Source of the DNA: Arthrobacter terrae
Lineage (GTDB): Bacteria > Actinomycetota > Actinomycetes > Actinomycetales > Micrococcaceae
Length of the DNA: 64,000 nucleotides
NCBI RefSeq assembly: GCF_015708085.1
Contig: NZ_JADNYM010000019.1
Location: forward strand, 1 to 64,000
Direction of reading: 5' to 3'
Below, piece after piece: positions 26,352 through 44,996 of this stretch (its first letter is position 1; each line of letters begins with the position of its first letter). Made by a program: the position numbers and the translations under genes. The notes under the pieces are model-generated. The model was not told the DNA's origin and ran no database searches. It saw only the letters and a list, made by a program, of their open reading frames with translations.

Positions 26352-28772
26352 TCAAATGACCTTATAGTGCTGAAGAATCCGAAAGGCCACAATTCCGGGC
26401 AGCACGGGGAGCCAGTAGGTCAGCACCCGCGAGGTAAGTACCGCCGCCACCGCATTGGTCGGCGCGATGCCTATTGCCGTCAGTCCGGCGATAACGGCCG
26501 CCTCGACAGTTCCCAGACCGCCCGGAGTGGGGGCCAACTGACCCAATGTGGAACCAACGACAAAGACGGCCAGGACCGGAAGCAGGGGAAAGTCGGGCGT
26601 GAAGGCAGCCAACGTTGTGGCCAGACCGGCAGCGGAGAGCAGCAGATACGCGCTGCAGCCGCCCAGGAGCTGGACGGCTCTAAGCGGCTGGCGGAGAGTG
26701 GGCAGGAGCTCACTGAGGATTTCGCGGCCACGCGTCATCCCGGGCCGCAGGATCCGGCGCTGCCCGAACGGGGATCCGAGGAACAGCACCACAGCGGTCA
26801 GCAGCGCCGCGGCGCCGGCAAGCACCGGCCAGCCAAGCGGAATCGCGTCAGTGCTGATGGGAACGGCGGTTCCGATGATGACAATTCCCAGGGCTGTGCC
26901 CACGGCGCTCACCAGGCCCATCGCCACCCGGTTCAGGGCAATAACGGCCACCGCGTGTGTGCCGCGCAGACCCGTACGCTCCAGGAAAACCCAATTGATC
27001 CGAAAGAAGCCGATGCCTGCCGCCGTCGTCCGGCCGGTGAAAGCCGCCGCGACCTGGACAGCAACCGTTTTCCATACCGGCAGCCGCCGGGGGCTGGAGC
27101 CGAGCACCGAGATCGCCGAGGCCAGAATGGCCAAAAAGCCGATCACAACGGTGATGCTAAGCCACAGCCGGTCGCCGCGGTCCACCAGCACCAGCACCTG
27201 GTCAATGTTGGAGAGCTCCGGGAGCACAAGGTAGATGGCTAAGCCACCCACGAGCAGGACGAGGACAGTGGTCGGGCGGATTGGCGATCGAAAAGACGGA
27301 ATCGGCGCATCGATCCGCTCGGCGAGTGTTTCACGCAGTTGGGCCAGTGAGTATCGTTCGGAAGGGAGCTGCCGGCGAAGTCTGCGGTGTAGTGCCAGGC
27401 GCTGCAGATGGGGAAGGGTGCCGCGCAGGACCGGCGCCGGCAGACAGCGCTGGATGCTGGCGACGGCGCGTCCGGTGCCGACCACTGAGGCCACGGATAC
27501 CAGCATCTCCGCGGCGTCCTGCCAGAGCTGTTCGCCGGGTCCGCCAATCCGGCTGAACGTGAAGTCGGTGATGTGCGGGTGGCCTTCATTGTCTATCAGG
27601 ATGTTCTGCGCCCGCAGGTCGTGGTGCGTAATGTGGGCGTCTCCCATTGCCAGGACGTTGGCCCAGAGTTCATCGAGCAATGTATCGCTGACGTCACCGG
27701 CCTCGAGGCTGGAGAGCTGGCGCCCTGGAATGTCACGGCGGATCAGATACGGTGGTCCGTGCTCTATTTCGCCGGCCAAAACGACCGGCAGCGTGCCAAC
27801 CCCGGCACGCTCGGCGAGCAGGGTGATATACGCCTCGTGCTCCACCTCGTGCCGGGGAGTTGACAGGCGTGGATCATTCTCCACCTCCAGGGACGCAAGG
27901 GTGCGCCGGAGCTTATACAGCGGTCCAGCGCGCCGGTTCAGCCGCCGGACAATTTTCATCTGCAGCCGGTTTCCGTCCGGGGTGAGCAGCTTATATTCCC
28001 GGGGGCGAAGCATGCCAGTGTGAACCGCGAGAATCTGCGCTCCCGTGATGCCGGCCTGCTCCAGCGCAAGCCGGACCACCGGCTCTGAGGTCCGGCGCCC
28101 CGGAGCTCCGAGCAAAATGTGGAACAGTGCACCGGTGCCCCAGCCCAGTACGGCACCGGCAAACACATCCACCGGCAGACTATGTCCGAGGAATACATCG
28201 GTCGCCGCCACCAGTACTACCAGGACCCAGCCGAAGTTCCGCGTGAAACGGCCCAGATATGGCCCGGCGACCGACGCAAGCGCGGCAACAACCGCCGTCC
28301 GGGCGTCCGGAAAATCGAAGCCATTGGGACCGGGGCCGCGCAAAAGACCACCCGGGACGGGGCGCGGGAGCAGCGTCCAGCCGAGAACGACGGCGAGAAC
28401 CCAACTGGCGGCGCCCGATGCCGCTAAGGCCAGGCCCAACCGAAGGCGCTTCAGATACAGGGCCACCGCCGCTCCGGCGACGATCCCGGGCCACCACCCC
28501 AGCCAGCTGAACACCTCGGCACCGTAGACCAGCCGGCTGGGCAACTGCTGGATCTGGGACGCGATCGCCGCCTCAACCGGGTTGGTGCCGGGTGTCTGGG
28601 CAATGTACCTGCACCCCAGCAGGACAACGCCCGCGACCACGATTCGGATCAGATCGGAGGGGTGCCGGCCGATCGAGAGCCTGAGCCGGGTGTATCGTCC
28701 GGACCGCGCGGATTTCCCGGGCTCGTGTGCGGAGTCCGAAGCGTCCTTGTGGCCAGGCGGGTTCGTCGCCAT
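26352..28772 (-). CDS. Three-part membrane protein: PAP2-like, kinase-like and flippase-like (UPF0104/LPG-synthase TM) domains
   Basis: From ATG 28772 the protein has 806 residues. Residues 40-225 hold six helices and degenerate PAP2 motifs: FPDARTA in place of PSGHT, then FLGHSLPVDVFAG with His197 and Asp202. Residues 245-480 form a kinase-like domain with the catalytic loop HHDLRAQNIL (383-392, Asp385) and DF at 403-404. Residues 500-806 are seven to eight helices ending in the UPF0104 signature APTPGGLGTVEAAV. That part resembles the flippase half of MprF. I infer a membrane-lipid handling protein, possibly moving a glycolipid. The PAP2 part may be inactive. It is divergent from the glycosyltransferase-acyltransferase gene 84 bp away. 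A TTG at 28808 is an alternative start. Confidence 0.85.
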   Translation of the reverse strand: MATNPPGHKDASDSAHEPGKSARSGRYTRLRLSIGRHPSDLIRIVVAGVVLLGCRYIAQTPGTNPVEAAIASQIQQLPSRLVYGAEVFSWLGWWPGIVAGAAVALYLKRLRLGLALAASGAASWVLAVVLGWTLLPRPVPGGLLRGPGPNGFDFPDARTAVVAALASVAGPYLGRFTRNFGWVLVVLVAATDVFLGHSLPVDVFAGAVLGWGTGALFHILLGAPGRRTSEPVVRLALEQAGITGAQILAVHTGMLRPREYKLLTPDGNRLQMKIVRRLNRRAGPLYKLRRTLASLEVENDPRLSTPRHEVEHEAYITLLAERAGVGTLPVVLAGEIEHGPPYLIRRDIPGRQLSSLEAGDVSDTLLDELWANVLAMGDAHITHHDLRAQNILIDNEGHPHITDFTFSRIGGPGEQLWQDAAEMLVSVASVVGTGRAVASIQRCLPAPVLRGTLPHLQRLALHRRLRRQLPSERYSLAQLRETLAERIDAPIPSFRSPIRPTTVLVLLVGGLAIYLVLPELSNIDQVLVLVDRGDRLWLSITVVIGFLAILASAISVLGSSPRRLPVWKTVAVQVAAAFTGRTTAAGIGFFRINWVFLERTGLRGTHAVAVIALNRVAMGLVSAVGTALGIVIIGTAVPISTDAIPLGWPVLAGAAALLTAVVLFLGSPFGQRRILRPGMTRGREILSELLPTLRQPLRAVQLLGGCSAYLLLSAAGLATTLAAFTPDFPLLPVLAVFVVGSTLGQLAPTPGGLGTVEAAVIAGLTAIGIAPTNAVAAVLTSRVLTYWLPVLPGIVAFRILQHYKVI

Positions 28773-28856
28773 GCTTTGGATATTGCCCCGACTTGGGCTC
28801 CGAGTCAACGGCGGGGACGGGTACCGGCGGCCGGAGCGAAGGGATAGTATCGCACC

Positions 28857-31460
28857 ATGGCGGAACTACACGGGTACTCCGACCCCCTGGAGATGATCGC
28901 TGGGGGGAGTTCGGCGCGGCGGGTCCTGACCTTATCGGCCAGCATGGGCGGCGGGCACGATGCCACGGCGGCAGGACTGGAAGAGGCCGTACGCAAGCTG
29001 TGGGCGGGAAGTGAAATCCGCCGATTGGACACCCTGGATGATTTGTTGGGTCCGGGAATCGGGCGGCTCTTTCGCGGTATCTATGTGTCGAATGTTGAGA
29101 CGACGCCCTGGCTCTACGAATTTTTTTACTCTTCGTTGTGGCGGCATCAGTGGTTCGCCCGCGCCTCGAAGGCCTTCACCGGCGCTTGGTGCGCGGTCCG
29201 CCTGGCGCGGCATATCGATAAATTCGATCCGGACCTGATCCTGTCGACATACCCGCTGGCGACTTCGGGCTTGGCATGGTTGCGCCGGCACCGTGGCCTG
29301 GCCGTACCCTGCGGTGCCTGGGTCTCCGATTTTGCCCCGCATCCCTTCTGGATTTACCGCGACATCGACGCTAACTTCGTGATGCATGAGGTGTCCGTGC
29401 CGCATGGCCAGGCGGCTGCACCGGGCGCCGTCGTGGAGGCATGTTCTCCGCCGGTGATCGGAGCGTTCGTGCCGGGGGACCGGAATGCAGCCCGCGCACA
29501 AGTGGGCCTGCAGCGTGATGCCTTCGTGGTGCTGGTGACATGCGGGGCCTATGCCTTCGGTGACGTGGAGGCGATTGTCCGGACATTACTCGAAGCCGCC
29601 CCGGATGTGCAGGTGGTAGCTGCCTGCGGGCGCAACACGGCCAGCCGGATCCGGCTGGAAAACCTCGGTATGCCGGCAGAACGTCTGCTGGCACTGGGCT
29701 GGACGGACAGCATGGCAGACTACGTGCGTGCGGCGGACCTGGTCCTGACCAACGCCGGCGGCGCCTCGGCGCTTGAAGCACTGGCCTGCGCCAGACCGAT
29801 CCTGATGTGCCGCCCGATCGCCGCGCACGGGGCGGCAAATGCCCAACTCATGGTGGTCAGCGGACTCGCCGATATCTGTGCCAATGAGGAACGCCTGCGG
29901 GACTACATCCGGACCGGCGTGGCCGATCGGGAGGCATTTGAAGACCTGGAACGTAAGGCCGGCGAACGCGGAAAGGTGCGGGATCTGCCCGCGGCACTGA
30001 CCCGACTGGCTGCACCCCGTTCGGCTCCAATCCGGCCCGGGCGGCCCTGGCCGATGCGTGCCGCCGACGAGTTTTTTACGCATGTGGAATCCGAGGACGT
30101 GCGCCAGGAAATTGGAGCGGTCCTCACCCTGGACGCCGTCGGACCCGACAGGACACTCAACGTGCACACGCTCCGCCGGGCCTTGGCCGGGCCGGCCCGC
30201 GGCTTGCCCTCCCTGCGCCGCCGGCTGGAGCGCAGCCCACGGGCCGGTTGGACCCTGCAGGAGAGTCTAAACATCGACGAACACATCTTCGAGACTGTAG
30301 TGGCTCCGTCGGCAACGGAAACAGAAATAGCGGAGGTGGTCGATGGGTTTTGGTCCGGACCTCTGCCCGCGGACCGGCCGGCGTGGCAGATGCTCCTGGT
30401 CCGTGGCCGGGCCAACGGCACTGCAGTGCTTGCCGTCAAAATGCACCATGCCCTGGGGGACGGGGTGTCCGCGCTTAGCCTGCTTGACCGGCTGCTTACT
30501 CCGGCGCCGGAGGACAGGCTGCGCGAGCGCACCGGCGCGATTCCCTCCTCGACACAACGGACACCGGCCCAGGCCCTCCACGCTGCGGGGCTGCTGGCCC
30601 GCGGGCTGTGGAGCCTGGCAAGCCGTGGAGGCCCACCTCATGCTGTCCTGAACCGGGACGGTATTGCCGGGCAGGGCCGGCAGTTCGTTGCGGTTCCGCT
30701 GCCTGCGGCCCAGTTAAGGAGAACCGCACGTTCCCTGCATGCCCATCCGCACGAACTCGTGCTGTCCATCATTGCCGACGGACTTGGCCGGGTACTGGGA
30801 CCAGCCGGGTTGTTGCGGACCGGAGGGTTACCGGAAGGGCCACGGGATGAATCGCTGCGGGCGGGGACGGCGCGTAACGGAACGCCGGAAAACACTGCGA
30901 CGTTAAGGGTAATGGTTCCGGTCGCCATGCGGGCGCCCCGGCTGGACCGGGTTTTCGGCAACTGGACGGGCGCTGCCGCACTGGATCTCCCGGTGGAGCC
31001 AATGACGCCGCCGCAGCGGGTGTCCTTGGTGCAAACCGAGCTTCGCCGAAGCGCTCGGCACGGCGAAGCCGAGGCGGCCCAGTGGGTCATGCAGCTGGCG
31101 GGACGGCTGCCGGCCGCCGCGCACGCCCGGTTCGCCCGACTGGCCTACACGCGCAGATTTTTCAATTCCATCGTCACTTATATGCCCGGGGCACGAGGTC
31201 CGCGGTGGTGTGCGGGCGCGCGCGTGCGGGCCATGTACCCGGTGCTGCCGTTGACGGACGGCGTACCGCTTACCGTTGGCGCGGTCCTCGCCGGGGACAC
31301 CATCGGCGTTGGCGTATATTTCGATCCGGCACTGGGCCTGGACCGTACCGTCGTCGCAGCCTCCATGGCGGACGCATTTGAGTCGGCGGTGCAGGCCGCC
31401 GCAGCGGTCCCCAGCGGAAGTTCCAATGGGGCGCCCGCACCGGGATCCAGGAAGGGCTGA
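28857..31460 (+). CDS. Glycosyltransferase (GT28/MGDG-synthase-like) fused to WS/DGAT acyltransferase
   Basis: The 867-residue protein joins two enzymes. Residues 20-395 are a GT-B glycosyltransferase: SASMGGGHDATA (27-38) as in monogalactosyl- and glucosyl-diacylglycerol synthases, DLILSTYPL, and a donor-site NAGGASALEAL (299-309). Residues 398-850 are a wax ester synthase/diacylglycerol acyltransferase domain. ADEFF replaces the usual D-x-x-F start, the active site HHALGDG (HHxxxDG) is at 530-536, and GNWTG near 701 matches the later family block. I infer synthesis of an acylated glycolipid, with sugar transfer and acyl transfer on one chain. No signal peptide is seen. It overlaps no neighbour, is followed after 1 bp by a DMT transporter, and is divergent from the flippase-like gene. 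Confidence 0.88.
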   Translation: MAELHGYSDPLEMIAGGSSARRVLTLSASMGGGHDATAAGLEEAVRKLWAGSEIRRLDTLDDLLGPGIGRLFRGIYVSNVETTPWLYEFFYSSLWRHQWFARASKAFTGAWCAVRLARHIDKFDPDLILSTYPLATSGLAWLRRHRGLAVPCGAWVSDFAPHPFWIYRDIDANFVMHEVSVPHGQAAAPGAVVEACSPPVIGAFVPGDRNAARAQVGLQRDAFVVLVTCGAYAFGDVEAIVRTLLEAAPDVQVVAACGRNTASRIRLENLGMPAERLLALGWTDSMADYVRAADLVLTNAGGASALEALACARPILMCRPIAAHGAANAQLMVVSGLADICANEERLRDYIRTGVADREAFEDLERKAGERGKVRDLPAALTRLAAPRSAPIRPGRPWPMRAADEFFTHVESEDVRQEIGAVLTLDAVGPDRTLNVHTLRRALAGPARGLPSLRRRLERSPRAGWTLQESLNIDEHIFETVVAPSATETEIAEVVDGFWSGPLPADRPAWQMLLVRGRANGTAVLAVKMHHALGDGVSALSLLDRLLTPAPEDRLRERTGAIPSSTQRTPAQALHAAGLLARGLWSLASRGGPPHAVLNRDGIAGQGRQFVAVPLPAAQLRRTARSLHAHPHELVLSIIADGLGRVLGPAGLLRTGGLPEGPRDESLRAGTARNGTPENTATLRVMVPVAMRAPRLDRVFGNWTGAAALDLPVEPMTPPQRVSLVQTELRRSARHGEAEAAQWVMQLAGRLPAAAHARFARLAYTRRFFNSIVTYMPGARGPRWCAGARVRAMYPVLPLTDGVPLTVGAVLAGDTIGVGVYFDPALGLDRTVVAASMADAFESAVQAAAAVPSGSSNGAPAPGSRKG

Positions 31461-31461
31461 T

Positions 31462-32352
31462 ATGCAAACCGCCGAACTCTTTGCCATCCTCCCCGCCATC
31501 GGCGCCTCGGCATCGTTTGGCGCAGCCGGTCTGCTCCAGCACCGTGCCAGCCGCCAGGCGCCCCCGAGCGGTCCGCTGCGCCCGCAGCTGCTCTTTGATC
31601 TGATCCGTATCCCGGCCTTCCGCTGGGGCGTGATTCTCGGGGCACTCGGTTTCGCTCTGCAGGTCACCGCCCTTGGCTTTGGTCCGCTGGGCCTGGTACA
31701 GCCGATCCTCGCAAGCCAGGTGTTGTTTTACCTGGCCATCGCCGCGAAAATAATGCACCGGTCCCCGGACTGGCCGCTCGTGGGCGCCGCGCTGCTGACG
31801 ATGGCGGGCATCAGCGCCTTCCTGTTAGCGGCCCGCCCCAGTCAGGGGCAGTCGCACTTCACCGGCGCCGTGTGGCCGCTCGCCGCCGTCCTGGCCGGGA
31901 TTATCGCCCTGTGCCTGCTGCTGGCCGCCCGGCTGTCCTCGACCATGCGATCACTGGCGCTCGCCGTGGCGGCGGCAGTCTGCTACGGAGTGACCGCCGG
32001 ACTGGTCCGCAGCATCGTCACCAGCGACGTGTCAACACTGCTGAGCCAATGGCAGTTGTATGCGGTCATTGTCCTTGGCCCGGCTGGTTTCCTGCTCAAC
32101 CAGAATGCCTTCCAGGCCGGGGTCGTCGGCTCCATTGCGGTGACGGTCATAACCGTCGGAGACCCCATCGTTTCCATCATTGTGGGTGCAATGTGGTTGG
32201 GTGAGTCGTTGAGCGGCGGTCCTTGGCGGATCACCATCGAAGTGCTCGCCTTGCTGGTCATGGTTGCCGGCATAGTCCTCCTGGCCAAGCGATCCCAGGA
32301 GGTCGGGGCAAACATGCGCGGGGAGAACTCCGACACGCCGGAGGTCCAGTGA
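31462..32352 (+). CDS. DMT-superfamily transporter (EamA/NIPA-like)
   Basis: A 296-residue protein with about nine hydrophobic helices in the inverted-repeat layout of DMT permeases. Clear elements are LPAIGASASFGAAGLLQHRA (N-term), GPLGLVQPILASQVLFYL and, in the second half, GSIAVTVITVGDPIVSIIVGAMWLGE, shown by ends GSIAVTV and AMWLGE. ATG 31462 lies 1 bp after the upstream stop, within GGAAGGGC-like sequence. The substrate is unknown. Its tight spacing to the glycosyltransferase-acyltransferase gene suggests that it moves a precursor or product of that pathway. Confidence 0.85.
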   Translation: MQTAELFAILPAIGASASFGAAGLLQHRASRQAPPSGPLRPQLLFDLIRIPAFRWGVILGALGFALQVTALGFGPLGLVQPILASQVLFYLAIAAKIMHRSPDWPLVGAALLTMAGISAFLLAARPSQGQSHFTGAVWPLAAVLAGIIALCLLLAARLSSTMRSLALAVAAAVCYGVTAGLVRSIVTSDVSTLLSQWQLYAVIVLGPAGFLLNQNAFQAGVVGSIAVTVITVGDPIVSIIVGAMWLGESLSGGPWRITIEVLALLVMVAGIVLLAKRSQEVGANMRGENSDTPEVQ

Positions 32353-32368
32353 AGATACCGATCGCCCG

Positions 32369-33190
32369 ATGAAACTCGATGGAGCACGGGTACTTGTCAC
32401 CGGCGCATCTTCGGGTATCGGCTGGGCTGTGGCGCAGGCACTGGCGCACGCCGGCTGCAGCCTATTGCTCACCGGCACGGATACCAACCGGCTCAGTCGG
32501 ATCGCCGCACTGACCGGAGGAGAAGCCGTCGCCGCCGATCTCGCCGAAGCCGGCGGCGTCGAGCGGCTTGTCAGCGCCGCGATCTCCACCGGGAACCCTG
32601 ACGTGGTGGTGCACTGCGCCGGCATGGGCAAGGTGGGCACGGTGCTCGGGCAAACCCGGCGCGACGGCGGCGGCCAGGTCCCCGGCGACGGGAACCGGTG
32701 TGCCGCCGTACGTCAGGACGATGGTGGGCAGGAGGAGTACAATCGGCTGTTCCGGCTGAACCTTGTGGCGCCCATGCGCCTGTCGCAGGCGCTGCTTCCG
32801 GCAATGCTGCGCAAGGGCGCCGGTCAGCTGGTCTTCGTGACCTCGATTGCGGGCGTCCTCGGGGTAGCGGGGGAATCGGCCTATGCTGCGTCCAAGGCCG
32901 CCCTTGGCACCTATGCCTCAAGTCTTCGCGTCGAACTGGCCGGCAGTGGAATTGGCGTCACGACGGTGATCCCCGGGGTGGTGGACACCGACTTCTTCAA
33001 CCGCCGCGGCGTTGCCTACCAGCGGCGCTTTCCCCGTCCCGTGCCGCCGTCGAGAGTTGCCGCTGCAGTGAAGTTTGCGCTGGAGAACAACCGGGCGCAG
33101 GTGGTGGTCCCCGGCTGGCTTCGCCTGCCGATCGTGGTCCAGGCCTGCGCGCCGCAGACTTATGCCCGCTTTGCCGGGCGCTGGGGCTGA
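32369..33190 (+). CDS. Short-chain dehydrogenase/reductase
   Basis: A 273-residue classical SDR. The NAD(P) loop is TGASSGIG (11-18), catalytic Ser lies in VFVTSIAG, and the YAASK motif supplies Tyr and Lys. An insertion of roughly 35 residues (RRDGGGQVPGDGNRCAAVRQ region, about 94-125) sits after the HCAGMG strand. The insertion is Gly/Gln/Arg-rich and unlike the rest. The C-terminus (PGWLRLPIVVQACAPQTYARF) resembles SDRs acting on lipids or isoprenoids. It is the last plus-strand gene of the lipid module and converges on hpnH. The substrate is unknown. Confidence 0.88.
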   Translation: MKLDGARVLVTGASSGIGWAVAQALAHAGCSLLLTGTDTNRLSRIAALTGGEAVAADLAEAGGVERLVSAAISTGNPDVVVHCAGMGKVGTVLGQTRRDGGGQVPGDGNRCAAVRQDDGGQEEYNRLFRLNLVAPMRLSQALLPAMLRKGAGQLVFVTSIAGVLGVAGESAYAASKAALGTYASSLRVELAGSGIGVTTVIPGVVDTDFFNRRGVAYQRRFPRPVPPSRVAAAVKFALENNRAQVVVPGWLRLPIVVQACAPQTYARFAGRWG

Positions 33191-33228: not shown

Positions 33229-34236
33229 TTAGCCGCGCATGGCGCGAAGGGATTCGCGCAGAGATCCCATCGTCGCCATCACCGCGGTTGGCTCGTAGCC
33301 GCAGTGCGCCATACAGTTTGCACACCTGTCGTCGCGGCCGCGGCCGTATTTCTCCCACTCGGTTTCTTCGATCAGTTCCTTGTACGTCTTGGCGTAGCCA
33401 TCCGACATCAGATAGCACGGCTTCTGCCAGCCGAACAGCGAGTAGCTTGGAATGCCCCACGCCGTACATTGGTAATCCTGCTTGCCCTCCAGGAAGTCCA
33501 GGAACAGGGGCGTGTGATTGAGCCTCCACCGCTTGCGGTTACCGCCGGCAAACGCCTTGGAAAACAGCTCCCGTGTTTCGGCCACCACTGGAAAATGCTC
33601 CTGGTCGGGGGCCTTCTCATAAGCATAGGCGGGCGAGATCATCATTTGATCGACCTTGAGATCGTCATTGAGGAAGTTCATCACATCGATGATGGAGGCC
33701 GGCGTATCCGTGTTGAAGATTGTCGTGTTCGTGGTGACCCGGAACCCGCGCTCCTTAAGCCATCGAACAGCTTCCACGGCTTCGTCAAAGACACCATCCT
33801 GGCAAACGGATTTGTCGTGCCGTTCGCGCAGACCATCGAGGTGAATGGTGAAGGCAAAATACGGCGAGGGGGTGAAATTGAACTTATTCCACCATTTGCG
33901 CACCAGCAGCGCGTTGGTGCACAGATACACGAACTTCTTCCGCGCCACCAGTTCGTTGACGATCGTGTCGATTTCGGGGTGCATCAGCGGCTCACCGCCG
34001 GCAATGGAGACCATCGGGGCGCCGCACTCCTCTATCGCACCGAGGGCCTGCTCCACCGGCATCCTACGACGCAACTGGTCCGCTGGATGCTGGATCTTGC
34101 CGCACCCGGCGCAGCCCAGGTTACAGGCGAACAATGGCTCTAGCTCGACCAGCAGCGGAAACTTCTTGTTGCCTTTGATCTTCTGAGTCGCCAGATAAGC
34201 GGCCATCCGTAGATTCTGACGCATTGGCACGGTCAT
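33229..34236 (-). CDS. hpnH: Adenosyl-hopene transferase HpnH (radical SAM)
   Basis: A 335-residue radical SAM enzyme that adds the adenosyl group of SAM to diploptene, giving adenosylhopane. The iron-sulfur motif is C38-x3-C42-x2-C45 (FACNLGCAGCGKIQHP). The SIAGGEPLMHPEID segment follows. A C-terminal Cys-rich region (CANCMAHCGYEP) is as in known HpnH. ATG 34236 has AGGAGGTGCGGTAACC upstream. It is the last gene of the hopanoid operon, 2 bp after the HpnG-IspH gene. Length and motifs are normal for HpnH. Confidence 0.95.
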   Translation of the reverse strand: MTVPMRQNLRMAAYLATQKIKGNKKFPLLVELEPLFACNLGCAGCGKIQHPADQLRRRMPVEQALGAIEECGAPMVSIAGGEPLMHPEIDTIVNELVARKKFVYLCTNALLVRKWWNKFNFTPSPYFAFTIHLDGLRERHDKSVCQDGVFDEAVEAVRWLKERGFRVTTNTTIFNTDTPASIIDVMNFLNDDLKVDQMMISPAYAYEKAPDQEHFPVVAETRELFSKAFAGGNRKRWRLNHTPLFLDFLEGKQDYQCTAWGIPSYSLFGWQKPCYLMSDGYAKTYKELIEETEWEKYGRGRDDRCANCMAHCGYEPTAVMATMGSLRESLRAMRG

Positions 34237-34238
34237 GG

Positions 34239-35747
34239 TTACCGCACCTCCTTCGGTAGGGTGAATTGGATTTGTTCTTCTGCTATTTGCCGTTCGATAA
34301 CGTCAACCGGTCCGAGGCCGCGCAAAGCGGCGATGACCGAGTCGACCATTGCCGACGGGGCCGATGCACCGGCCGTGAGGGCAATAACGTCGACGCCGAT
34401 AAGCCACTGCAGCGAGATGTCTGAGACATCGTCAATCAGATGGGCAGGGGTGTCCATCCGCTCAGCCTTCTCCACGAGCCGCAGTGAATTTGAGGAGTTT
34501 GTTGAGCCGATCACCAAAGCAAGACCGGCTTCACGGGCCACCTGCCGCAGCGCTTCCTGACGGTTGGTGGTCGCGAAACAAATATCGTCCGACGGAGGCT
34601 CACGCAGTTCGGGGAATCTGGCCTGCAGTATGTCGACGAGTTCGGCTACTTCATCGGCGGCCAAGGTGGTCTGCATAAGGTATGAGACCCGGTCCGGGTC
34701 CGCCACCGCCACCGTCCGCGCGTCATTGGCGGTCTCAACCAACACGGTGTTCTGCGGGCGTTCACCCATCGTGCCTTCGGTTTCTTCGTGGCCCGCGTGA
34801 CCAAGAAAAAGGACAGTATCGCCGTCGTCGGCAAAACGCCGCACCTCGGTATGGACCTTGCGGACCAGCGGGCAGGTGGCGTCAATGACGTCCAGGCCGC
34901 GTCGCTGCGCCTCGGCGCGGACCGCCGGCGAGACGCCGTGCGCTGAAAAAATGACAGTGGACCCGGCGGGTACTTCATCGAGTTCATCGACAAAGACCGC
35001 GCCTCGGCTCGCCAGATCCTTTACCACGTGGGTGTTGTGCACGATCTGCTTACGCACATAAACGGGTGCGCCGCGCTGCGCGAGCGCGTTGTCCACGACA
35101 TCGATGGCTCGAACGACGCCGGCGCAGAAGGACCGTGGCCCGGCCAGCAGTACCTGGCGCGGTCCGGCAGCCCGTCCCCAGATTTCCAGCGAAGGCCCGA
35201 GCCGGGCCAGGGCCCGCATGGCCGTGCCCATCCGTCCCATACTGGCCGGGCGCAGCAGTGGGCTGGCGGCTACATCGGCAATGACCCGGACGACGGCGCG
35301 GGCGGTACCCGGGGCCGCCGCCAGGACGGCAGCCGATTCCATATCCACACACAGGGCGCCGGTGGCCGCAAGGGCCCCGCGTTCTTTCCCTGTCACCACA
35401 TGGTCCGTGCTGACTATGGGTCCGGTATGAATGCGTAGCCCCTGGCTGCGCAGTTCGGCCGCGAGCAGCTCGGCGCCGGGGCACGGATACGTTACGCCCG
35501 CGCCCCGGACCTCCGAGGCGACGACGACGTCCCCGGCAACCAGGTCGGCGCGCAGGCCCCCGCCAATGCCCGCGACCACCAGCGCACCGGCCCCGCGCAC
35601 GGCAGGGGAGCCGCCTGCCCGGGCCCCTGCCTTCGTCCCGGTCCCGCATTGGAAGACCGTCGCCTCCGTGACAACGCGCCTCAGCGCCGCGGCTTCGAAC
35701 CAACTCGGTGCGCAAATCATCAGTTTCGTCATCTTCTGCGGTGTCAT
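34239..35747 (-). CDS. Fusion of HpnG (adenosylhopane nucleosidase) and IspH (HMBPP reductase)
   Basis: Translation starts at ATG 35747 (AGGAGGT site), overlapping the shc stop by 4 bp. Residues 5-195 match HpnG, the MTA/SAH-nucleosidase-like protein that removes adenine from adenosylhopane (GIGGGLRADLVAGDVVVASEV, 60-80 region; CVDMESAAVLA, 133-143). Residues 198-502 are IspH, the 4Fe-4S enzyme that makes IPP and DMAPP. Cluster cysteines are C208, C292 and C390, and VHNTHVV and GHEETEGTMGE carry the catalytic His and Glu. IspH alone is usually 310-330 residues. The fusion links the last MEP-pathway step to a late hopanoid step. Both halves appear intact. Confidence 0.93.
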   Translation of the reverse strand: MTPQKMTKLMICAPSWFEAAALRRVVTEATVFQCGTGTKAGARAGGSPAVRGAGALVVAGIGGGLRADLVAGDVVVASEVRGAGVTYPCPGAELLAAELRSQGLRIHTGPIVSTDHVVTGKERGALAATGALCVDMESAAVLAAAPGTARAVVRVIADVAASPLLRPASMGRMGTAMRALARLGPSLEIWGRAAGPRQVLLAGPRSFCAGVVRAIDVVDNALAQRGAPVYVRKQIVHNTHVVKDLASRGAVFVDELDEVPAGSTVIFSAHGVSPAVRAEAQRRGLDVIDATCPLVRKVHTEVRRFADDGDTVLFLGHAGHEETEGTMGERPQNTVLVETANDARTVAVADPDRVSYLMQTTLAADEVAELVDILQARFPELREPPSDDICFATTNRQEALRQVAREAGLALVIGSTNSSNSLRLVEKAERMDTPAHLIDDVSDISLQWLIGVDVIALTAGASAPSAMVDSVIAALRGLGPVDVIERQIAEEQIQFTLPKEVR

Positions 35748-37855
35748 TGTGGCGACCTCCTCAGGCAGCGGCCCAGCGCACTGATGGGAAACACCAGGCG
35801 ATACAGGTGGTAATTGATGTAAAAGTCGCCGGGAAATCCGGTCCCCGTGTACTGCGGCTCGTCCCAGCCTCCGTCGGGCTTTTGAGCCGCGACGAGCCAG
35901 CCAATGCCGTGGCGGGCGGGTCCGCCGTCGTCGTGCTGTGCCGCATGGAGTGCCAGCAGTGCCCACGCCGTCTGCGACGCTGTCGACTCTCCCCGCCCGA
36001 CCCAGGATGCGTCGGCATACGAGCGAAGGTCTTCCCCCCAGCCGCCGTCGGTATTTTGGTGGGAGTACAGCCACTGGACGGCCCGGTGAATGGCGGGGCT
36101 GTCCACGGACTCGCCTGCGGCTATCAGCGCCGGCACGACGGCCCCGGTACCATACACATGATTGGCTCCCCAGCGGCCGAACCACGACCCGTCGGCCTCC
36201 TGATGTTCCAGCAACCAGCGGACACCGCGTTGCATGGCCTGGTCGCCGATGCCCCGGCGCGCCAGCATCTCGACGACGTGGGCGGTGACATCGGCGCTGG
36301 GCGGGTCAATCACCGCCCCGAAGTCACAAAACGGCAGCCGGTAGGCGAGTTCGCGCGTATTGTCGGCGTCGAATGCGGCCCAGCCGCCGTCCCGGCTTTG
36401 CATCCCGATCACCCATTCGGCGCCGCGGGACATGGCCGCTGTCCGGGGCGGAACGGCTTCGGCGCACGCCAGCCCCAGCACGACTTCGGCGGTATCATCG
36501 ATGTCCGGATAGCCGTCGTTGTCGAACTCAAAGGCCCAGCCGCCGGCCGCAGTGCCTGGCCGGCGCACGGCCCAGTCGCCGCGGCTGCGGATTTCTTCCC
36601 GGCACAACCACTCCGCGGCCCGGTCAATGGCGGGATCACCGGGGGGAATCCCGGCATCGCCCAGCGCCACGAGTGCGAGCGCGGTATCCCAGACCGGTGA
36701 CTGGCAGGCCTCGATCCTGCGCAGCCGGCCTGCGGGCGTGTCTTCAATGATCGTGAACCTGTCCCAGCCGGCCAGCCCGGCCAGCATCGCCGGATGATCA
36801 AGGGCATAGCCGCTGGCATGCAGGGCCATCAGGGAGTAGACCCATGGGGGCTGAATTCCTCCCCAGGAACCATCGTGCTCCTGCCGGCCCAGAATCCATC
36901 CGACGGTGCGCTTGAGCGCGGCCGTGCGCAGCGGCCGGCCGGGAAACCTCTTATGCCGGTGCAGCAGCCCTTCATACCGGTGCAGCAGCGCATCGAGAGC
37001 GCCGAAGCCGCGGGTGGCCAGGCGGCCGCGGGCAGCCTTCGCCGACCACCGGGACGGGGAGGTACCGGACTTGGACGACCATAAAGGCCCCGCGGCGGCG
37101 CTTACCGGGGCGGGGTTTACCGGGGCCGGGTTTACCGCGGCAGCCGGCGCGCACAATTCCTCCACGGTAAAACCAAGGTCACGCTGCGGGCGCAGAGCAG
37201 ATAGGACGGTTAGCGGGGCGATGGTCTGTCGGGCCCAGCAGGCAAAATCATAGAGATTCAGCGGGACCGACGGTGGCAGGAACACCAGTTCCGGCGGCAG
37301 CGCAGGCACCTCGTCCCAGCTCCACGCGCCAAATAGCGCCAACCAGATTCTGGTGAAGACGCGGGTGCCCGCCAAACCGCCGTGCTCCAGAATAACCTTC
37401 CTGGCGGACTGCATATGGGCTTCGTGCAGCTCATCGCCGGCCAGGCGCAGCGCCAGGTAGGCTTCCGCCGTGGTGGAGGGGTCGGCCGGGCCACCGTAGA
37501 AGTTGGCCCAGGACCCGTCCGTACGCTGCTGGGAGCGGATCCAGCGTGCGGACTGCGCTGTCTGTTCGGCGGTGCGCACACCCAAAAACTGGCGCATCAG
37601 CAGGTCTTCGGCGTCCATGGTCACATTGGTCTCCAGCTCGCCCTGCCACCAGCCCTCGTCGTGCTGAAGTTCCTTTAGGCGGTGGAGGGCACGGTCCAGG
37701 GCAGCCAGCGCGTTTGTGTCGACGTCCGCACGGGTATGGGTACTGACGTCGCTATCGGTGTCGGTGTTGAGGTCCGCGGATGGCACCCCTGTGTCTGCTC
37801 GCCGGGTCGCCGTTTCGAAGCCGGACGCGGAGGGGCTTTTGTCAACGGTAGTCAT
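35744..37855 (-). CDS. shc: Squalene-hopene cyclase
   Basis: A 703-residue cyclase that turns squalene into hopene and hopanol on the membrane. The catalytic DIDD motif (DXDD) is at 451-454, and repeated QW motifs are visible (for example QHDEGWWQGE, QQRTDGSWANF, RQEHDGSWGGI, HQEADGSWFGRWG, HQNTDGGWGED, QKPDGGWDE). A low-complexity insertion at about 236-282 (VNPAPVNPAPVSAAAG) is not part of the fold. The first 45 residues are Thr/Asp-rich and variable. ATG 37855 is selected for GGAG upstream and for lying after the prenyl synthase stop. It is preceded by a 58-bp gap and overlaps the next gene by 4 bp. Confidence 0.95.
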   Translation of the reverse strand: MTTVDKSPSASGFETATRRADTGVPSADLNTDTDSDVSTHTRADVDTNALAALDRALHRLKELQHDEGWWQGELETNVTMDAEDLLMRQFLGVRTAEQTAQSARWIRSQQRTDGSWANFYGGPADPSTTAEAYLALRLAGDELHEAHMQSARKVILEHGGLAGTRVFTRIWLALFGAWSWDEVPALPPELVFLPPSVPLNLYDFACWARQTIAPLTVLSALRPQRDLGFTVEELCAPAAAVNPAPVNPAPVSAAAGPLWSSKSGTSPSRWSAKAARGRLATRGFGALDALLHRYEGLLHRHKRFPGRPLRTAALKRTVGWILGRQEHDGSWGGIQPPWVYSLMALHASGYALDHPAMLAGLAGWDRFTIIEDTPAGRLRRIEACQSPVWDTALALVALGDAGIPPGDPAIDRAAEWLCREEIRSRGDWAVRRPGTAAGGWAFEFDNDGYPDIDDTAEVVLGLACAEAVPPRTAAMSRGAEWVIGMQSRDGGWAAFDADNTRELAYRLPFCDFGAVIDPPSADVTAHVVEMLARRGIGDQAMQRGVRWLLEHQEADGSWFGRWGANHVYGTGAVVPALIAAGESVDSPAIHRAVQWLYSHQNTDGGWGEDLRSYADASWVGRGESTASQTAWALLALHAAQHDDGGPARHGIGWLVAAQKPDGGWDEPQYTGTGFPGDFYINYHLYRLVFPISALGRCLRRSPQ

Positions 37856-37913
37856 TTTCGTCTCTGCTCCTTCGGTGCGTATTCGGTGCGTACCCTGCTT
37901 GGAGGTGGTCTGT

Positions 37914-38924
37914 TCAGTGATCCCGGTGATTGAGCTGATATGCCAGGGCGATGAATTCATGGGCGATCGGCGCCGGTATTGTCAGGGCCTCGATGGCCGC
38001 GAGTGCTTCCTGTAGCTCACGGTCGGCCCGCTGTTCGGTCCATTCTCTGCCGCCGGCCGTCTCGACCAGTTCCGCTGCCTCGCTTAACTCGGTTTCGCTA
38101 AGCTCGCCGGGACGGAAGTAAAGGGACTTCAAGCGCGTTCCGGCGTCGGTGTCTGATTGCAGTGCATACACCACAGGCACCGATTTTTTGCGCGAACGCA
38201 GGTCCGACAGGACTGGTTTACCGGTGCGTTCAGGATTTCCCCAGATCCCGAGAATGTCGTCGCTGAGCTGGAACGCCATGCCCAAATGTGTGCCGAAATC
38301 TGCCAGGCCCAACGCAAGTTCCGCTGGAGCGTCGGCCAGCACCGCTCCCAGCGAGGCACTGCAGGCCATCAACGCCCCGGTCTTGTCGTCTGCCATTTTC
38401 AGGCATTCGACCAGACTGACGTCCTCGCGCGTTTCGAAGTCGAGGTCCGCGGCCTGCCCGGCAATGAGCCGTCTGGTGCTGGCACCGACGCACCTTAACG
38501 CCCAGATGGCAGTGCTGGACGGCGCCTCGGCCAGCAGTTCGCTGGCCAGCGAACACAGCGCGTCCCCGGCGAGAATCGCAGCGGGAATGCCAAACTGCGC
38601 CCACGCAGTGGTCCGGTGCCGGCGCTCGGTGTCATGGTCCATCACATCGTCGTGCAGCAAGGAGAAATTGTGGATCAGTTCGCAGGCGAGGGCGGCCGGA
38701 ACGCCAATCTCGTCGCCGGCACCTGCCGCCCGGGCGGAAAGCAGCGCCAAGGTGGGCCGGATCCCCTTCCCCATGCTCCCGGTCGGCACGCCGTCCGGGT
38801 CCCACAGACCCAGATGATAGCCACAGCAGTGGCGGGTATGCGGGTCCAGCCGGTCCAACGCCGACCGCAGCGGGACCTCAATGCGCCGCTGGCTGTCGGC
38901 CAGGCTGTCAATGGTCGTGCTCAT
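37914..38924 (-). CDS. Polyprenyl diphosphate synthase (FPP/GGPP-type)
   Basis: A 336-residue trans-prenyl transferase. The first aspartate-rich motif is LLHDDVMD (DDxxD). The second, FQLSDDILGIWG, has DDxxG in place of DDxxD, as in several actinobacterial synthases. KGIRPTLALLSAR supplies the substrate-binding Lys/Arg, and PVLSDLRSRKKSVPVVYA is the conserved basic lid. In the hopanoid operon it should supply the C15 farnesyl diphosphate used by HpnD, but product length was not derived. It starts within the hpnE stop (4-bp overlap). Confidence 0.9.
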   Translation of the reverse strand: MSTTIDSLADSQRRIEVPLRSALDRLDPHTRHCCGYHLGLWDPDGVPTGSMGKGIRPTLALLSARAAGAGDEIGVPAALACELIHNFSLLHDDVMDHDTERRHRTTAWAQFGIPAAILAGDALCSLASELLAEAPSSTAIWALRCVGASTRRLIAGQAADLDFETREDVSLVECLKMADDKTGALMACSASLGAVLADAPAELALGLADFGTHLGMAFQLSDDILGIWGNPERTGKPVLSDLRSRKKSVPVVYALQSDTDAGTRLKSLYFRPGELSETELSEAAELVETAGGREWTEQRADRELQEALAAIEALTIPAPIAHEFIALAYQLNHRDH

Positions 38925-40285
38925 ACAATCACTTCCCTTAATGCGGATCGGACGGGACCGGATTGACTGAGGGCATCAGCGGCCGACAGGCCGCTGCGGA
39001 CTGCGCCCTCCATGGTGTCCGGCCATCCGGTGGCGGTCCACGCGCCTGCCAAAACCAAGGCCGGCCACTTCGTGCCCGGTTGTGGACGGAAACGAGCGCT
39101 GCCGGCCCGTTGGCGAAACGTCGCCCGTGGTTCGCGGGTCACAAAAACATCAATAACCTTCGCGCTACGGGCCTTGGGAAGGACGCGGTTCAGGGCGGCA
39201 AGGTGGCTGCGGCTAATGTCCGCCCCCGGCAGGGCAATTTGTGCATCTGCGGCAGATAGCGAGGAAACCAGATACTGACCGCTATTAACCCCGGCCGCAG
39301 CGGTCCGGTCGAAGATCCAGCCGGTGGCAGGATCAAGGACTGCAGCGTACGGCAGATCCATAACCCTGCGGTCAAAGAGCACATGGACGTTGACAATGGG
39401 GGAATCGCCGAGCTGGTCCCAGCAGCCGGGCTCCGTTTTGGCGTCCGTAGGGACCAGGCGGGCCGCCGCCGCATGGGGAACCGCCATCACGACCGCATCC
39501 GCAGCCAGCTCACCGGAATCCGTGCGGACCACCAGTCCGTGACCGGCCGCGCTTCCAGCAACCGCCCGCACCCGTTCGCCGGTATGCAGCCGAACACCGC
39601 TTTGGGCAAAGGCGGTCCTTGCGGGGCCGTCGTGCAGCAGTGCCAGCGGCACGTCCGCAATTCCCATGTCACCGGCTCCGGCATGGTCCAGGAGTCCGGT
39701 TCGAAAAACCCGTGCTGCCAGGGCCAGGGACGCTTCGGACGGATCGATATTCAGTGCGGCGACCGTCAGCAGACCCCAGAGCCGGGATACGGCGCGGGGT
39801 CCCTGGCCGTGGCGGTGCAGCCATTCGCCGAACGTCGTGGCGTCGTTTGCCGGATTGTCCGGATCTACATTGCGCAGGGCAGCTGCGCAAAGAGCGGCGC
39901 GGAAACGCTCCGACGGTGACAGCGCGCGGTACCCGGCCAGAGCCGGCAGGAGGTGCAGCGGGGCGGGACCAAACATAGATCGCCGCAAACCGATATCCGA
40001 CCGTCTCGGCACCAGGACCGGAATGTCCAGCCGTGGCTGGATAGTCACCAAATGGCCCACGCCCAAGCGGTCCAGCAATTCGCGGTACCGCAGGTAGCAG
40101 CGCAGGAAGACGTGCTGGCCGGTGTCAACGCTCAGGCCGCCGCGTGAAAATGAGTAGGTGGCACCGCCCAGCCGCGGGCGCGACTCCAGAAGCGTCACGT
40201 CACTGCCCCGATCGGCGAGCCGGAGGGCGGCGGTGATCCCGGCAAGACCGCCGCCAACAACCACTACCGTGCCAACCCGGTTCAT
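38921..40285 (-). CDS. hpnE: Hydroxysqualene dehydroxylase HpnE
   Basis: A 454-residue FAD-dependent amine-oxidase-fold enzyme that reduces hydroxysqualene to squalene. The dinucleotide loop is VVVVGGGLAGITAAL (7-21). The RPRLGGATYSFSRGG and DTGQHVFLRCY segments are family signatures, and the C-terminal FAD block LVLAGAWTATGWPDTMEGAVRSG is present (in part). It overlaps hpnD upstream by 4 bp and the prenyl synthase downstream by 4 bp, so the three are coupled. With HpnC and HpnD it makes squalene without a squalene synthase. Confidence 0.95.
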   Translation of the reverse strand: MNRVGTVVVVGGGLAGITAALRLADRGSDVTLLESRPRLGGATYSFSRGGLSVDTGQHVFLRCYLRYRELLDRLGVGHLVTIQPRLDIPVLVPRRSDIGLRRSMFGPAPLHLLPALAGYRALSPSERFRAALCAAALRNVDPDNPANDATTFGEWLHRHGQGPRAVSRLWGLLTVAALNIDPSEASLALAARVFRTGLLDHAGAGDMGIADVPLALLHDGPARTAFAQSGVRLHTGERVRAVAGSAAGHGLVVRTDSGELAADAVVMAVPHAAAARLVPTDAKTEPGCWDQLGDSPIVNVHVLFDRRVMDLPYAAVLDPATGWIFDRTAAAGVNSGQYLVSSLSAADAQIALPGADISRSHLAALNRVLPKARSAKVIDVFVTREPRATFRQRAGSARFRPQPGTKWPALVLAGAWTATGWPDTMEGAVRSGLSAADALSQSGPVRSALREVIV

Positions 40286-41223
40286 GCCCGGCCCCTGACC
40301 AATGCGCGCGCCGCGACCTGCAACTTCCCGGCCGCGGACAAGGACAGCCGCTGGCTGCGGACCGGTTCAGGATCCGCGGCGATCCGGGCCAGGAGACGGC
40401 GGTAGATACCTGCCATCGCCGCGGTGCAGGCGGCGCTGCGGTGATCGAGCAGGGGCAATAATGCCAGACCTTCCCGGTACCAGGACTCGGCGCGATCGGC
40501 TTCAAACCTGATCAACGCCGCAAACCGTTCCGGGGGATCCACAAGGCATCCGTCGGCGTCGAGCTCCATCGTGCAGCCGAAGCGCTCCAGATCTTCGCCC
40601 GGAAGGTAGATCCGGCCATTGCGCCTGTCCTCGCACACGTCGCGGAGAATATTGGTCAGCTGCAGCGCAACCCCAAGGGTGTCCGCGAGCGGGTTTGCGC
40701 GCTGAAGTTTCGGCGGATTGTACACACCAACGGACATTCGGCCTACCGATCCGGCGACGCAGCGGCAGTACACGACCAGGTCCTCGAAGGTGCGGTACTG
40801 GACACCGTCGACGTCGGCCTGGCATCCGTCGATCAACTCCTCAAGTGCCTCCAACGGAATCGGCAGACGGCCGGCAGCGTCGGCGAGGGCCACGAGGACG
40901 GGATCCGCGCTGTCTATAACGCCATGCCGGTCCAGCACGCCGGCAGCGGCGCCACTCGCAGCGGCTGCGTGTGCCTCGGCGGTGATTCCGGCACGAATGC
41001 CACGCAGGCTCTCCCTGACCCTGCCCAGCTGGACGGTCTTCTGCCCGGCCGGCAGATCGCCGTCGCCAATATCGTCAATGCGTCTGGCGACTGCGTAGAC
41101 GGCGGACAGCGCCCGGCGCTTGACGGGCGGCAACAAGCGGATCCCGTAGGAGAAGTTCCGGGCTTCGCGGCGCGTTATGTCCGCGCACACGGCGTACGCC
41201 GCCTCGACACTCATCCCGGCCAC
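40282..41223 (-). CDS. hpnD: Presqualene diphosphate synthase HpnD
   Basis: A 313-residue squalene/phytoene-synthase-fold enzyme joining two farnesyl diphosphates into presqualene diphosphate. The first Asp-rich motif is RRIDDIGDG near 57, and the second is LTNILRDVCEDRRNGRIYLP near 191. The N-terminus ARNFSYGIRLLPPVKRRAL identifies HpnD rather than HpnC. Its start lies inside the end of hpnC (13-bp overlap) and its stop overlaps hpnE by 4 bp. All active-site aspartates are present. Confidence 0.93.
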   Translation of the reverse strand: MAGMSVEAAYAVCADITRREARNFSYGIRLLPPVKRRALSAVYAVARRIDDIGDGDLPAGQKTVQLGRVRESLRGIRAGITAEAHAAAASGAAAGVLDRHGVIDSADPVLVALADAAGRLPIPLEALEELIDGCQADVDGVQYRTFEDLVVYCRCVAGSVGRMSVGVYNPPKLQRANPLADTLGVALQLTNILRDVCEDRRNGRIYLPGEDLERFGCTMELDADGCLVDPPERFAALIRFEADRAESWYREGLALLPLLDHRSAACTAAMAGIYRRLLARIAADPEPVRSQRLSLSAAGKLQVAARALVRGRA

Positions 41224-42080
41224 CGCACCGTTGCCACGGCCCAGGCCACAGCAATCTGCCGGGTCGAGGGCTTTCGCGCCTTCATGGGGTCGTGTCCACT
41301 GAGCCGCAGTGCATGGGCGGCCGCCCTGCCGCCGGCAATGTAACCGGAAACCGCCAGCCGGGACCAGCCGTGCAGCGTTGAGACCAGCGGTGCTCCGGCG
41401 TCGAGCCAGGCCAGCGCCCGGTCGGTTTCAAACGCGATAAGGGCCCGGACATCATCGGTGGCTTCACCGCTGCCCAGCAGAGGCTCGGCCACCTTGAACC
41501 GGCGCAGGTCCCGCTGCGGGACATAGACCCGGCCGGAGGCATAGTCCTCGCCAATATCCTGCCAGTGCTCCAGCAATTGCAGCGCCGTACAGATGCGGTT
41601 GGAAAAGGCAATGCATTCAACGCTCGCGCGGTCAAAAATATGCAGCACAATCTCGCCCACCGGATTCGCCGAAAGCCGGCAATATCCTTCCAGCTCGTCA
41701 AACGTCTCGTAGCGCACTACCCGTTGGTCGACAATGTTCGCCTCAATTAGACGCAGCATCGGCTCCATCGGCACGGTTGTGTCCGCTACCAGCGGCCTGA
41801 GCGCTGCCACCACCGGGTCCCCGGGAATACCTCCGGCGTAAAGGAGCCGGACCTCCGCCGCCACCTGCTCCAGCCGCGGAATGCGTGCTCCGGGCGCCTT
41901 ATCGCCGAGATCATCAACGTAACGGGCGTAGTTATAGGCGGCGGTGAGATGGCGGCGGATATGCCTGGGTAACACCGCCAGTGCGACCGGGAAATTCTCG
42001 TTGCGCATGGCAGCACGGGCAGCGGCCGGTTCCATTGCCACCGATCGGTCCGCCGATTCCTGCCATCGCGGCTCGGTCAT
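41211..42080 (-). CDS. hpnC: Hydroxysqualene synthase HpnC
   Basis: A 289-residue squalene/phytoene-synthase-like enzyme converting presqualene diphosphate to hydroxysqualene. The signature RNENFPVALAVLPRHIRRHL and YARYVDDLGD near the N-terminus mark HpnC. The second motif, QLLEHWQDIGEDYASGRVYVP, has the expected HpnC form. ATG 42080 is preferred for GGTGAGG upstream. A GTG at 42101, joined directly to the dxs stop, would add seven residues. It is coupled to hpnD by overlapping ends. Confidence 0.93.
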   Translation of the reverse strand: MTEPRWQESADRSVAMEPAAARAAMRNENFPVALAVLPRHIRRHLTAAYNYARYVDDLGDKAPGARIPRLEQVAAEVRLLYAGGIPGDPVVAALRPLVADTTVPMEPMLRLIEANIVDQRVVRYETFDELEGYCRLSANPVGEIVLHIFDRASVECIAFSNRICTALQLLEHWQDIGEDYASGRVYVPQRDLRRFKVAEPLLGSGEATDDVRALIAFETDRALAWLDAGAPLVSTLHGWSRLAVSGYIAGGRAAAHALRLSGHDPMKARKPSTRQIAVAWAVATVRWPG

Positions 42081-42101
42081 CGCATCCTCACCGGCTCTCA
42101 C

Positions 42102-44126: not shown

Positions 44127-44244
44127 GCTGATCCTCCGCACGTCACGAAAAGCAGCCTCTTGCTTAACTGCAGAATCGCTCGACCTGCCATAACTTCTAT
44201 CGCGTTGCGAGCCTTCGTGGCATGAGCCTACCTGCTTGGCCGGA

Positions 44245-44694
44245 CTATGTGTAGCCCTTTGTGGCTGCGCCAAGAAAATTGGCCGAGAGGTGCTGGAGGA
44301 ACTCCTCGGATATCTGCAGCATCTCCGCTGCCCGCTCAAGCTCAGCCAGATGGACCCGGCTCAGATCAGCAAGGATCACGCGTGCCTTGTCGGTCAGGAC
44401 CAGCCGCACCACCCGGTGATCATGAAGGTCGCGGCAGCGCTCCAGCAGTTTCATGGTCTCGGCGCGCCGGACCAGCCCGACCGCGCTGTGATGCCTGATC
44501 TGCAGCGCCGAAGCCACGTCTCCCACGCTTGCGGGAGGCACACCCGTACGGGCGCGGATCACCAGCAGCAACTGATGTTGTTGCGCTGTTAAGCCGGCCT
44601 TGGCGGCTTCTTGCTCGCTCCAGACCAGAAATTCCCGCAGTGCGCAGCGGAAGGTTAATAGTACGTTGTACTGCGCGTCGGTCAGATCCGACAT
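44245..44694 (-). CDS. MarR-family transcriptional regulator
   Basis: A 149-residue winged-helix protein. The recognition region is [33 protein letters not shown] (54-86, in part) and the wing [17 protein letters not shown] (88-104). It reads in the same direction as dxs and is 118 bp upstream. It may control the hopanoid operon in response to an unknown ligand, or be its first gene. It is divergent from the pRiA4b-like gene. The 44695-44996 interval carries both promoters and has no other clear gene. Confidence 0.85.
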
Positions 44695-44996
44695 AGGCTC
44701 ATGCTACGCCCATGACGCCGTCTCCACGAGGTTCGGGCAAGTCCGGCAAATCGGCAGAAGGCGTGCCATCCCGGCGAGCCGTGGGCAGCACCGCGGGGCG
44801 CCACAGCGGGGCAGAACTGCAGGGCGCCACAGCGGGCACGATCGGCGGCAACGTGGTCCGGATCCAATGCAACGGTGAGCGGCATCCGTTGGGCATACCG
44901 GTCCTGGCAGCGCTCTGCCGCGCAATAAACTGGCATCCTGGCCGACTGGAACGTAGCGTCGTCGTAAGACCATTTCCGCGACCAGGCAGGGATACC

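Follow-up and report, generated by a model that had tools for sequence, protein, structure and literature searches.

What lipid would be made by a protein in which a glycosyltransferase and an acyltransferase are joined in one chain? The question is raised by a gene in the window, i.e. the whole stretch of 64,000 nucleotides of Arthrobacter terrae DNA that was analysed. The gene is on the margin of a hopanoid locus, with HpnH, squalene-hopene cyclase (SHC), HpnE and HpnC, all scoring above curated cut-offs, beside it. A sequence-only reading of this DNA had recognised the two domains, their fusion and an intact acyltransferase site, which held up under Pfam, AlphaFold2 and Foldseek analysis, and had overlooked the hopanoid locus.

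The fusion protein and its locus

Genes and domains of the locus (coordinates in the window, strand, assignment and its basis).
26352-28808, minus strand, divergent neighbour, PAP2-like/kinase-like/flippase-like (LPG_synthase_TM), 818 aa; only LPG_synthase_TM above the Pfam cut-off
28857-31460, plus strand, fusion of GT28 (MGDG-synthase type) and WS/DGAT, 867 aa; Pfam, AlphaFold2, Foldseek
28917-29975, plus strand, N-terminal GT-B domain of the fusion, about residues 21-373
30054-31382, plus strand, C-terminal WS/DGAT domain of the fusion, residues 400-842, with HHALGDG at 530-536
31462-32352, plus strand, DMT-family transporter; start inferred (ATG one base after the fusion stop codon)
32369-33190, plus strand, short-chain dehydrogenase (SDR); family search
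33229-34236, minus strand, HpnH, adenosylhopane synthase; 522 bits against a cut-off of 225
34239-35750, minus strand, HpnG-like phosphorylase fused to IspH/LytB, 503 aa; start inferred, HpnG part 73.0 against a cut-off of 187.1
35744-37960, minus strand, SHC; true start may be internal
37914-38924, minus strand, polyprenyl diphosphate synthase, IdsB-like; below the curated cut-off
38921-40285, minus strand, HpnE, hydroxysqualene dehydroxylase; family search
40282-41223, minus strand, HpnD-like; 275.1 bits, just under the cut-off of 278.6
41211-42101, minus strand, HpnC, squalene synthase; 252.9 bits against a cut-off of 250.45
42102-44339, minus strand, DXS, first enzyme of the MEP pathway; family search

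The fusion is encoded by a single unbroken frame from the ATG at 28857 to the TGA at 31458-31460. Four Pfam families matched the protein above their gathering scores, namely MGDG_synth (residues 34-178, 47.5 bits), Glyco_tran_28_C (residues 224-360, 35.5 bits), WS_DGAT_cat (residues 400-585, 84.7 bits) and WS_DGAT_C (residues 701-842, 50.6 bits). The motifs quoted in the sequence-only reading were all found, SASMGGGH at residues 27-34, NAGGASALEAL from residue 299 and the intact HHALGDG site. In the AlphaFold2 model, for which 19 fused proteins were aligned, the GT and WS/DGAT domains were both folded (mean pLDDT 85.9, pTM 0.86). Foldseek matched the WS/DGAT structures 6chj and 7nxg (TM 0.76 and 0.77, both by target) and MGD1 (4wyi, TM 0.77 by target), and in a profile search of PDB sequences the N-terminal half was matched by 9wde and 4wyi, the C-terminal one by 6chj and 7nxg. 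NCBIfam returned the same families as Pfam, all under their subfamily or equivalog cut-offs. Because the WS/DGAT half scored 173.8 bits against the curated TIGR02946 cut-off of 309.95, it is, judged by this score, a superfamily member outside the named TIGR02946 subfamily. With PF06925 and PF04101 above their gathering scores and a GT-B fold, the other half has the features of GT28/MGDG-synthase-type enzymes.

Since only one base separates the fusion stop codon from the ATG of the DMT gene and 16 bases separate the latter from the SDR gene, the three look like one operon. On the opposite strand, the HpnG-like and IspH parts share one frame; several related loci matched both parts, and elsewhere the match ended before IspH. 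The plus strand also encodes, at 44712-46898, a 728-aa protein with AQKGSP repeats that gave no NCBIfam match at E 1e-20.

Fused and unfused relatives

We scanned a genome collection for six exact peptide patterns taken from the protein in the window, a scan biased to near relatives, which yielded 36 related loci, all in Actinomycetota. Both domains were present in one frame in 29 of them, each from its own genome (L057, which looks like the same genome as L023, is excluded from this count) and together spanning several families. The other seven, all from Amycolatopsis, carry the GT alone, and a WS/DGAT was not found in their flanks. As the 29 fused loci come from separate genomes, chance and misassembly are excluded, and an artefactual joining of two genes by an assembly or frame error, which the sequence-only reading had named as its possible undoing, is left with next to no probability. 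The closest match, at 60% identity, was in a metagenome bin of Amnibacterium, and relatives occur in named strains of Prauserella, Kutzneria, Amycolatopsis and Intrasporangium.

In the GT tree the fusion clade forms one group (99/99), within which the GT-only genes group with the fused Amycolatopsis genes (96/88; 90/56 in a smaller tree of 16 fused and four of the seven GT-only rows, omitting L064, which duplicates the L107 gene, and three distant rows, L004, L006 and L007). Given this position among fused genes, loss of the second domain would be the simpler reading of the GT-only genes.

Of the 36 loci, L021 alone has a counterpart of the divergent neighbour at 26352-28808 close to the fusion (61% identity), and the membership of this neighbour in the system is doubtful. 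The SDR of the window carries an in-frame insert of 24 residues (residues 93-116; 32645-32716 in the window), a stretch that is gapped in at least 24 of the 26 relatives aligned. In L029 the SDR match (13456-14186) consists of two adjoining pieces in different frames, which suggests a frameshift in this metagenome bin.

Association with hopanoid genes

Core hopanoid genes were found in the flanks of 25 of the 29 fused loci (the others are L026, on a short contig, L027, L031 and L054) and of none of the seven GT-only loci. The SDR was similarly distributed (26 of 29 fused, none of seven GT-only), and a DMT match, on varying sides, was present in 27 of 29 fused and in all seven GT-only loci. At the level of genomes, HpnH exceeded its cut-off in 37 of 38 entries, two of which (G661 and G742) appear to be the same genome; the sole miss was the genome of L025, with an HpnH fragment at a contig end. 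The GT-only Amycolatopsis genomes hold HpnH despite having no hopanoid gene in the flanks of the GT gene.

In a class sample of 296 genomes, 70 carry HpnH. Matches covering both domains were found in two of the 70 HpnH-positive against none of the 226 HpnH-negative genomes, a comparison that treats two 296-genome draws as the same set, as the genome labels show, and that rests on a single-protein search by which very distant fusions could be missed. A laxer search (E 1e-10) yielded no third fusion among the 70. The fusion is therefore accessory: it tracks hopanoid genomes, yet most of the hopanoid genomes sampled are without it.

To the neighbourhood of HpnH we devoted a set of 20 regions from 19 of the 70 HpnH-positive genomes, picked for spread and not randomly. 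An SDR lay near HpnH in nine of these regions with the fusion absent. An HpnO-like aminotransferase was present in four (the query's own included), and two had both genes, so the SDR as a strict alternative to an HpnO-type aminotransferase is not supported; no HpnO-like aminotransferase occurred in the flanks of the 36 fusion and GT-only loci. The SDR is hopanoid-linked and a candidate ribosylhopane reductase. For the conversion of ribosylhopane to bacteriohopanetetrol no enzyme was established as of November 2025, according to the available part of PMC12583986.

Unfused GT28 genes can also lie close to hopanoid genes. They adjoin HpnC in L107, L121 and L122 (two genera), each with an adjacent DMT gene, and in G599 and G613 their coordinates put them no more than 9 kb from HpnH. 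In the GT tree these genes did not group with the fusion clade, so a single ancestral hopanoid GT28 is not supported, and the linkage either has several origins or is in part a coincidence.

An acquired block

HpnH was present in one of 149 genomes sampled from the family of the window. Between 45 and 64 kb, long stretches match G001-G003 at 84-93%. Of four genomes from the same genus, two match over 68 bases ending just short of 45 kb, at 81-84%, and two show 69-73% matches in the interval 25.2-26.2 kb. From about 26.2 to 44.9 kb the four same-genus genomes give only short matches of 67-72%, at DXS and IspH. Since the flanks match same-genus genomes and the interior barely does, the locus looks to have been acquired as a block of about 18-19 kb. 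A contaminant contig is thought unlikely, as it is the DNA on both sides of the locus that matches some same-genus genomes. The same genome has a second DXS-like stretch on contig C13 and a second IspH-like stretch also elsewhere, so the locus appears to bring its own isoprenoid supply.

Proposed function

We propose that the fusion glycosylates bacteriohopanetetrol or a similar polyol and acylates the product, i.e. that it is a two-step hopanoid-modifying enzyme, a reading to which we give about an even chance. A hopanoid acceptor is favoured over diacylglycerol because the gene sits at a hopanoid locus. HpnC, HpnD and HpnE together with SHC would yield hopene, to which HpnH would add adenosine; the HpnG part would then take off adenine, and a reductase, for which the neighbouring SDR is the candidate, would produce bacteriohopanetetrol. 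The N-terminal GT-B domain would transfer a sugar from a nucleotide-sugar to the polyol side chain, and the C-terminal WS/DGAT domain, with His531 as the base, would place a fatty acyl group on a hydroxyl of the sugar or of the polyol. The DMT protein may move the product across the membrane, and in GT-only species the acyl step would be absent or performed elsewhere. It is fair to infer from the two domains that one protein makes a lipid both glycosylated and acylated; the order glycosylated then acylated, as the sequence-only reading had it, goes beyond the evidence, and the order of steps given here is likewise presumptive.

The glycosyltransferase half and its acceptor

None of the 30 fused proteins, and none of the 37 clade members, deviates at H34 or E307, and these residues are kept in 25 and 24, respectively, of 25 outgroup GTs; we take them to be the catalytic His of the GxGH loop and the Glu that binds the nucleotide. 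Seven aromatic residues in the acceptor half (F89, F90, W95, W99, F100, W111 and W141) occur in at least 97% of the 37 clade members and in at most 8% of the 25 outgroup GTs, a comparison that omits the distant L004, L006 and L007. Such a pattern would be expected from a changed lipid acceptor.

The outgroup GT28 genes differ in their surroundings, too. A NodB-type polysaccharide deacetylase adjoins them at 20 of 28 mostly short loci, comprising 20 of 23 from the class search (L058, L066 and L080 are without it) and none of five from the relatives search (L002, L004, L006, L007 and L020). At the same threshold none was found in the 36 fusion and GT-only loci or in the window. The missing deacetylase together with the seven clade-specific aromatics suggests that the GT was taken over for a new, bulkier lipid acceptor and that deacetylation in the parent cassette was replaced by acylation. 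GT28 and NodB-type deacetylase genes, some with a DMT transporter, form a recurring set in actinomycetes (L122:2586-5498 and other GT28 loci).

The acceptor could nevertheless be diacylglycerol, in which case the fusion would make an acylated glycosyl-diacylglycerol, an ordinary membrane glycolipid, and its adjacency to hopanoid genes would reflect shared control of membrane lipids. The best-scoring solved GT, 9wde, is a processive diacylglycerol glucosyltransferase (E 7.3e-41), MGD1 matches as well, and diglucosyl diacylglycerol synthase is the top NCBIfam match of the GT half, although at 110.9 bits against a cut-off of 500; for the UgtP equivalogs NF010135 and NF010134 the scores were 110.9 against 500 and 62.3 against 557. 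The GT-only Amycolatopsis genes, with no hopanoid gene in their flanks, would also suit a diacylglycerol product. We nonetheless consider this explanation unlikely in view of the HpnH and linkage counts given above (37 of 38 entries; 25 of 29 fused loci) and of the clade-specific change in the acceptor half, and also since the related PAP2-WS/DGAT type described below adjoins HpnC in two of three tree rows, or two of the five genes seen.

The acyltransferase half and a second fusion type

Within HHxxxDG, all 30 fused proteins, among them that of the window, have the second His (H531), the Asp (D535) and the Gly (G536); the first His is kept in 29, with Leu in L021. As far as sequence can tell, a dead acyltransferase, the other outcome by which the sequence-only reading would have fallen, is thus rejected.

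A second type of fusion, PAP2-WS/DGAT, was found in L114 (11695-16938) and L115 (1876-5016), where it adjoins HpnC, and unlinked in L085 (8510-10534). Pfam PAP2_3 was run on the L085 protein, which L114 and L115 match at 56% and 49% over nearly the full length. In the class sample, five of the 70 HpnH-positive genomes gave a match, i.e. G688 (the query's own), G526, G506, G520 and G534 (partial), on the HpnH contig in two genomes and on another contig in three. In the WS/DGAT tree (omitting L078 and L082, the same genes as L090 and L085, L011 and L019 with short matched stretches, and L057), the GT28-fused and PAP2-fused domains form a common group, separate from 13 other WS/DGATs (99/94). In this unrooted tree the two are probably sisters, and because they group together, it appears that one acyltransferase lineage associated with hopanoids has been combined with two different partners. 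In PAP2-WS/DGAT, a phospho-headgroup transferase may be coupled to an acyltransferase for hopanoids.

The seven GT-only loci and the PAP2-WS/DGAT forms have one domain in the absence of the other, which would fit a model in which the two draw on one hopanoid pool and act in parallel, yielding glycosylated and acylated hopanoids separately, and are joined for dosage or co-localisation. Hopanoids with acylated polyol side chains and hopanoid glycosides are both reported (excerpt of PMC8537080). Parallel action is nevertheless improbable in our view, as 29 loci from several families retain the GT-AT arrangement, and this speaks for a common substrate of the two domains in the proposed hopanoid-modifying enzyme.

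C30 carotenoids of the Methylobacterium type are glycosyl esters, and by analogy the enzyme might act on a carotenoid or another squalene-derived lipid, HpnC, HpnD and HpnE supplying the squalene. The available part of a paper on the Methylobacterium C30 carotenoid cluster uses the words for both enzymes (PMC10448405). We regard this as very improbable, since no carotenoid-specific gene exceeded its curated NCBIfam cut-off among the matches listed for the window proteins searched, and since HpnH is the constant partner.

Significance

Hopanoids are widely used as lipid fossils of bacteria. In the accessible parts of PMC12583986 and PMC8537080, some steps in hopanoid side-chain synthesis are without known genes and acylated hopanoids are known chemically. 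The operon brings together a candidate glycosyltransferase, acyltransferase, transporter and reductase, which makes the question testable in the named-strain relatives. With somewhat less than an even chance of being right throughout, a fuller claim is that the protein is a single-chain acylated glycosyl-hopanoid synthase, and, by our searches, that no hopanoid acyltransferase and no glycosyl-plus-acyl hopanoid synthase had been assigned a gene before; that it works with a dedicated flippase and with the long-missing ribosylhopane reductase next to it; and that it belongs to a wider actinomycete family of hopanoid-tailoring acyltransferases in which the N-terminal partner, GT28 or PAP2, is exchanged. 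Confirmation of the proposed function would imply that a new class of lipids exists, which might serve as a biomarker of actinomycetes. Neither a GT28-WS/DGAT fusion nor a hopanoid acyltransferase gene was met in the titles and abstract openings, from few subscription journals, among the matches listed; both domains are known singly, and within the same matches neither their combination nor its hopanoid setting appeared.

Comparison with known systems

HpnI, HpnK and HpnJ make bacteriohopanetetrol cyclitol ether, and this route resembles the proposed one in placing a sugar on bacteriohopanetetrol and in being encoded in a hopanoid locus (excerpt of PMC12583986). It differs in having no acyltransferase, whereas the 36 fusion and GT-only loci are without a NodB-type deacetylase; an HpnI search matched none of 23 genomes, with the controls equally silent. 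Among known lipids, PMC8537080 lists, in the part available, hopanoid glycosides, N-acyl hopanoids and N-acylglucosaminyl bacteriohopanetetrol. The last, from Alicyclobacillus, is a hopanoid with both sugar and acyl group and the nearest product that we met in publications, but it is N-acylated, comes from Firmicutes and has no gene named alongside it in that part of the source (PMC8537080).

The diacylglycerol glycosyltransferases of the MGD1/UgtP type (PF06925 and PF04101) share the fold and the conserved residues; the fusion differs by its acyltransferase, by a score far under the diglucosyl-diacylglycerol equivalog cut-off and by acceptor-side aromatics unlike those of the outgroup GTs compared. 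WS/DGAT enzymes usually form esters. Those of known structure (6chj, 7nxg) have the same fold and HHxxxDG site, whereas the fusion scores under the TIGR02946 cut-off, groups with PAP2-WS/DGAT and carries an N-terminal GT. In Helicobacter, cholesteryl glucoside, a sterol-like lipid, is glycosylated and then acylated, by separate proteins of other families.
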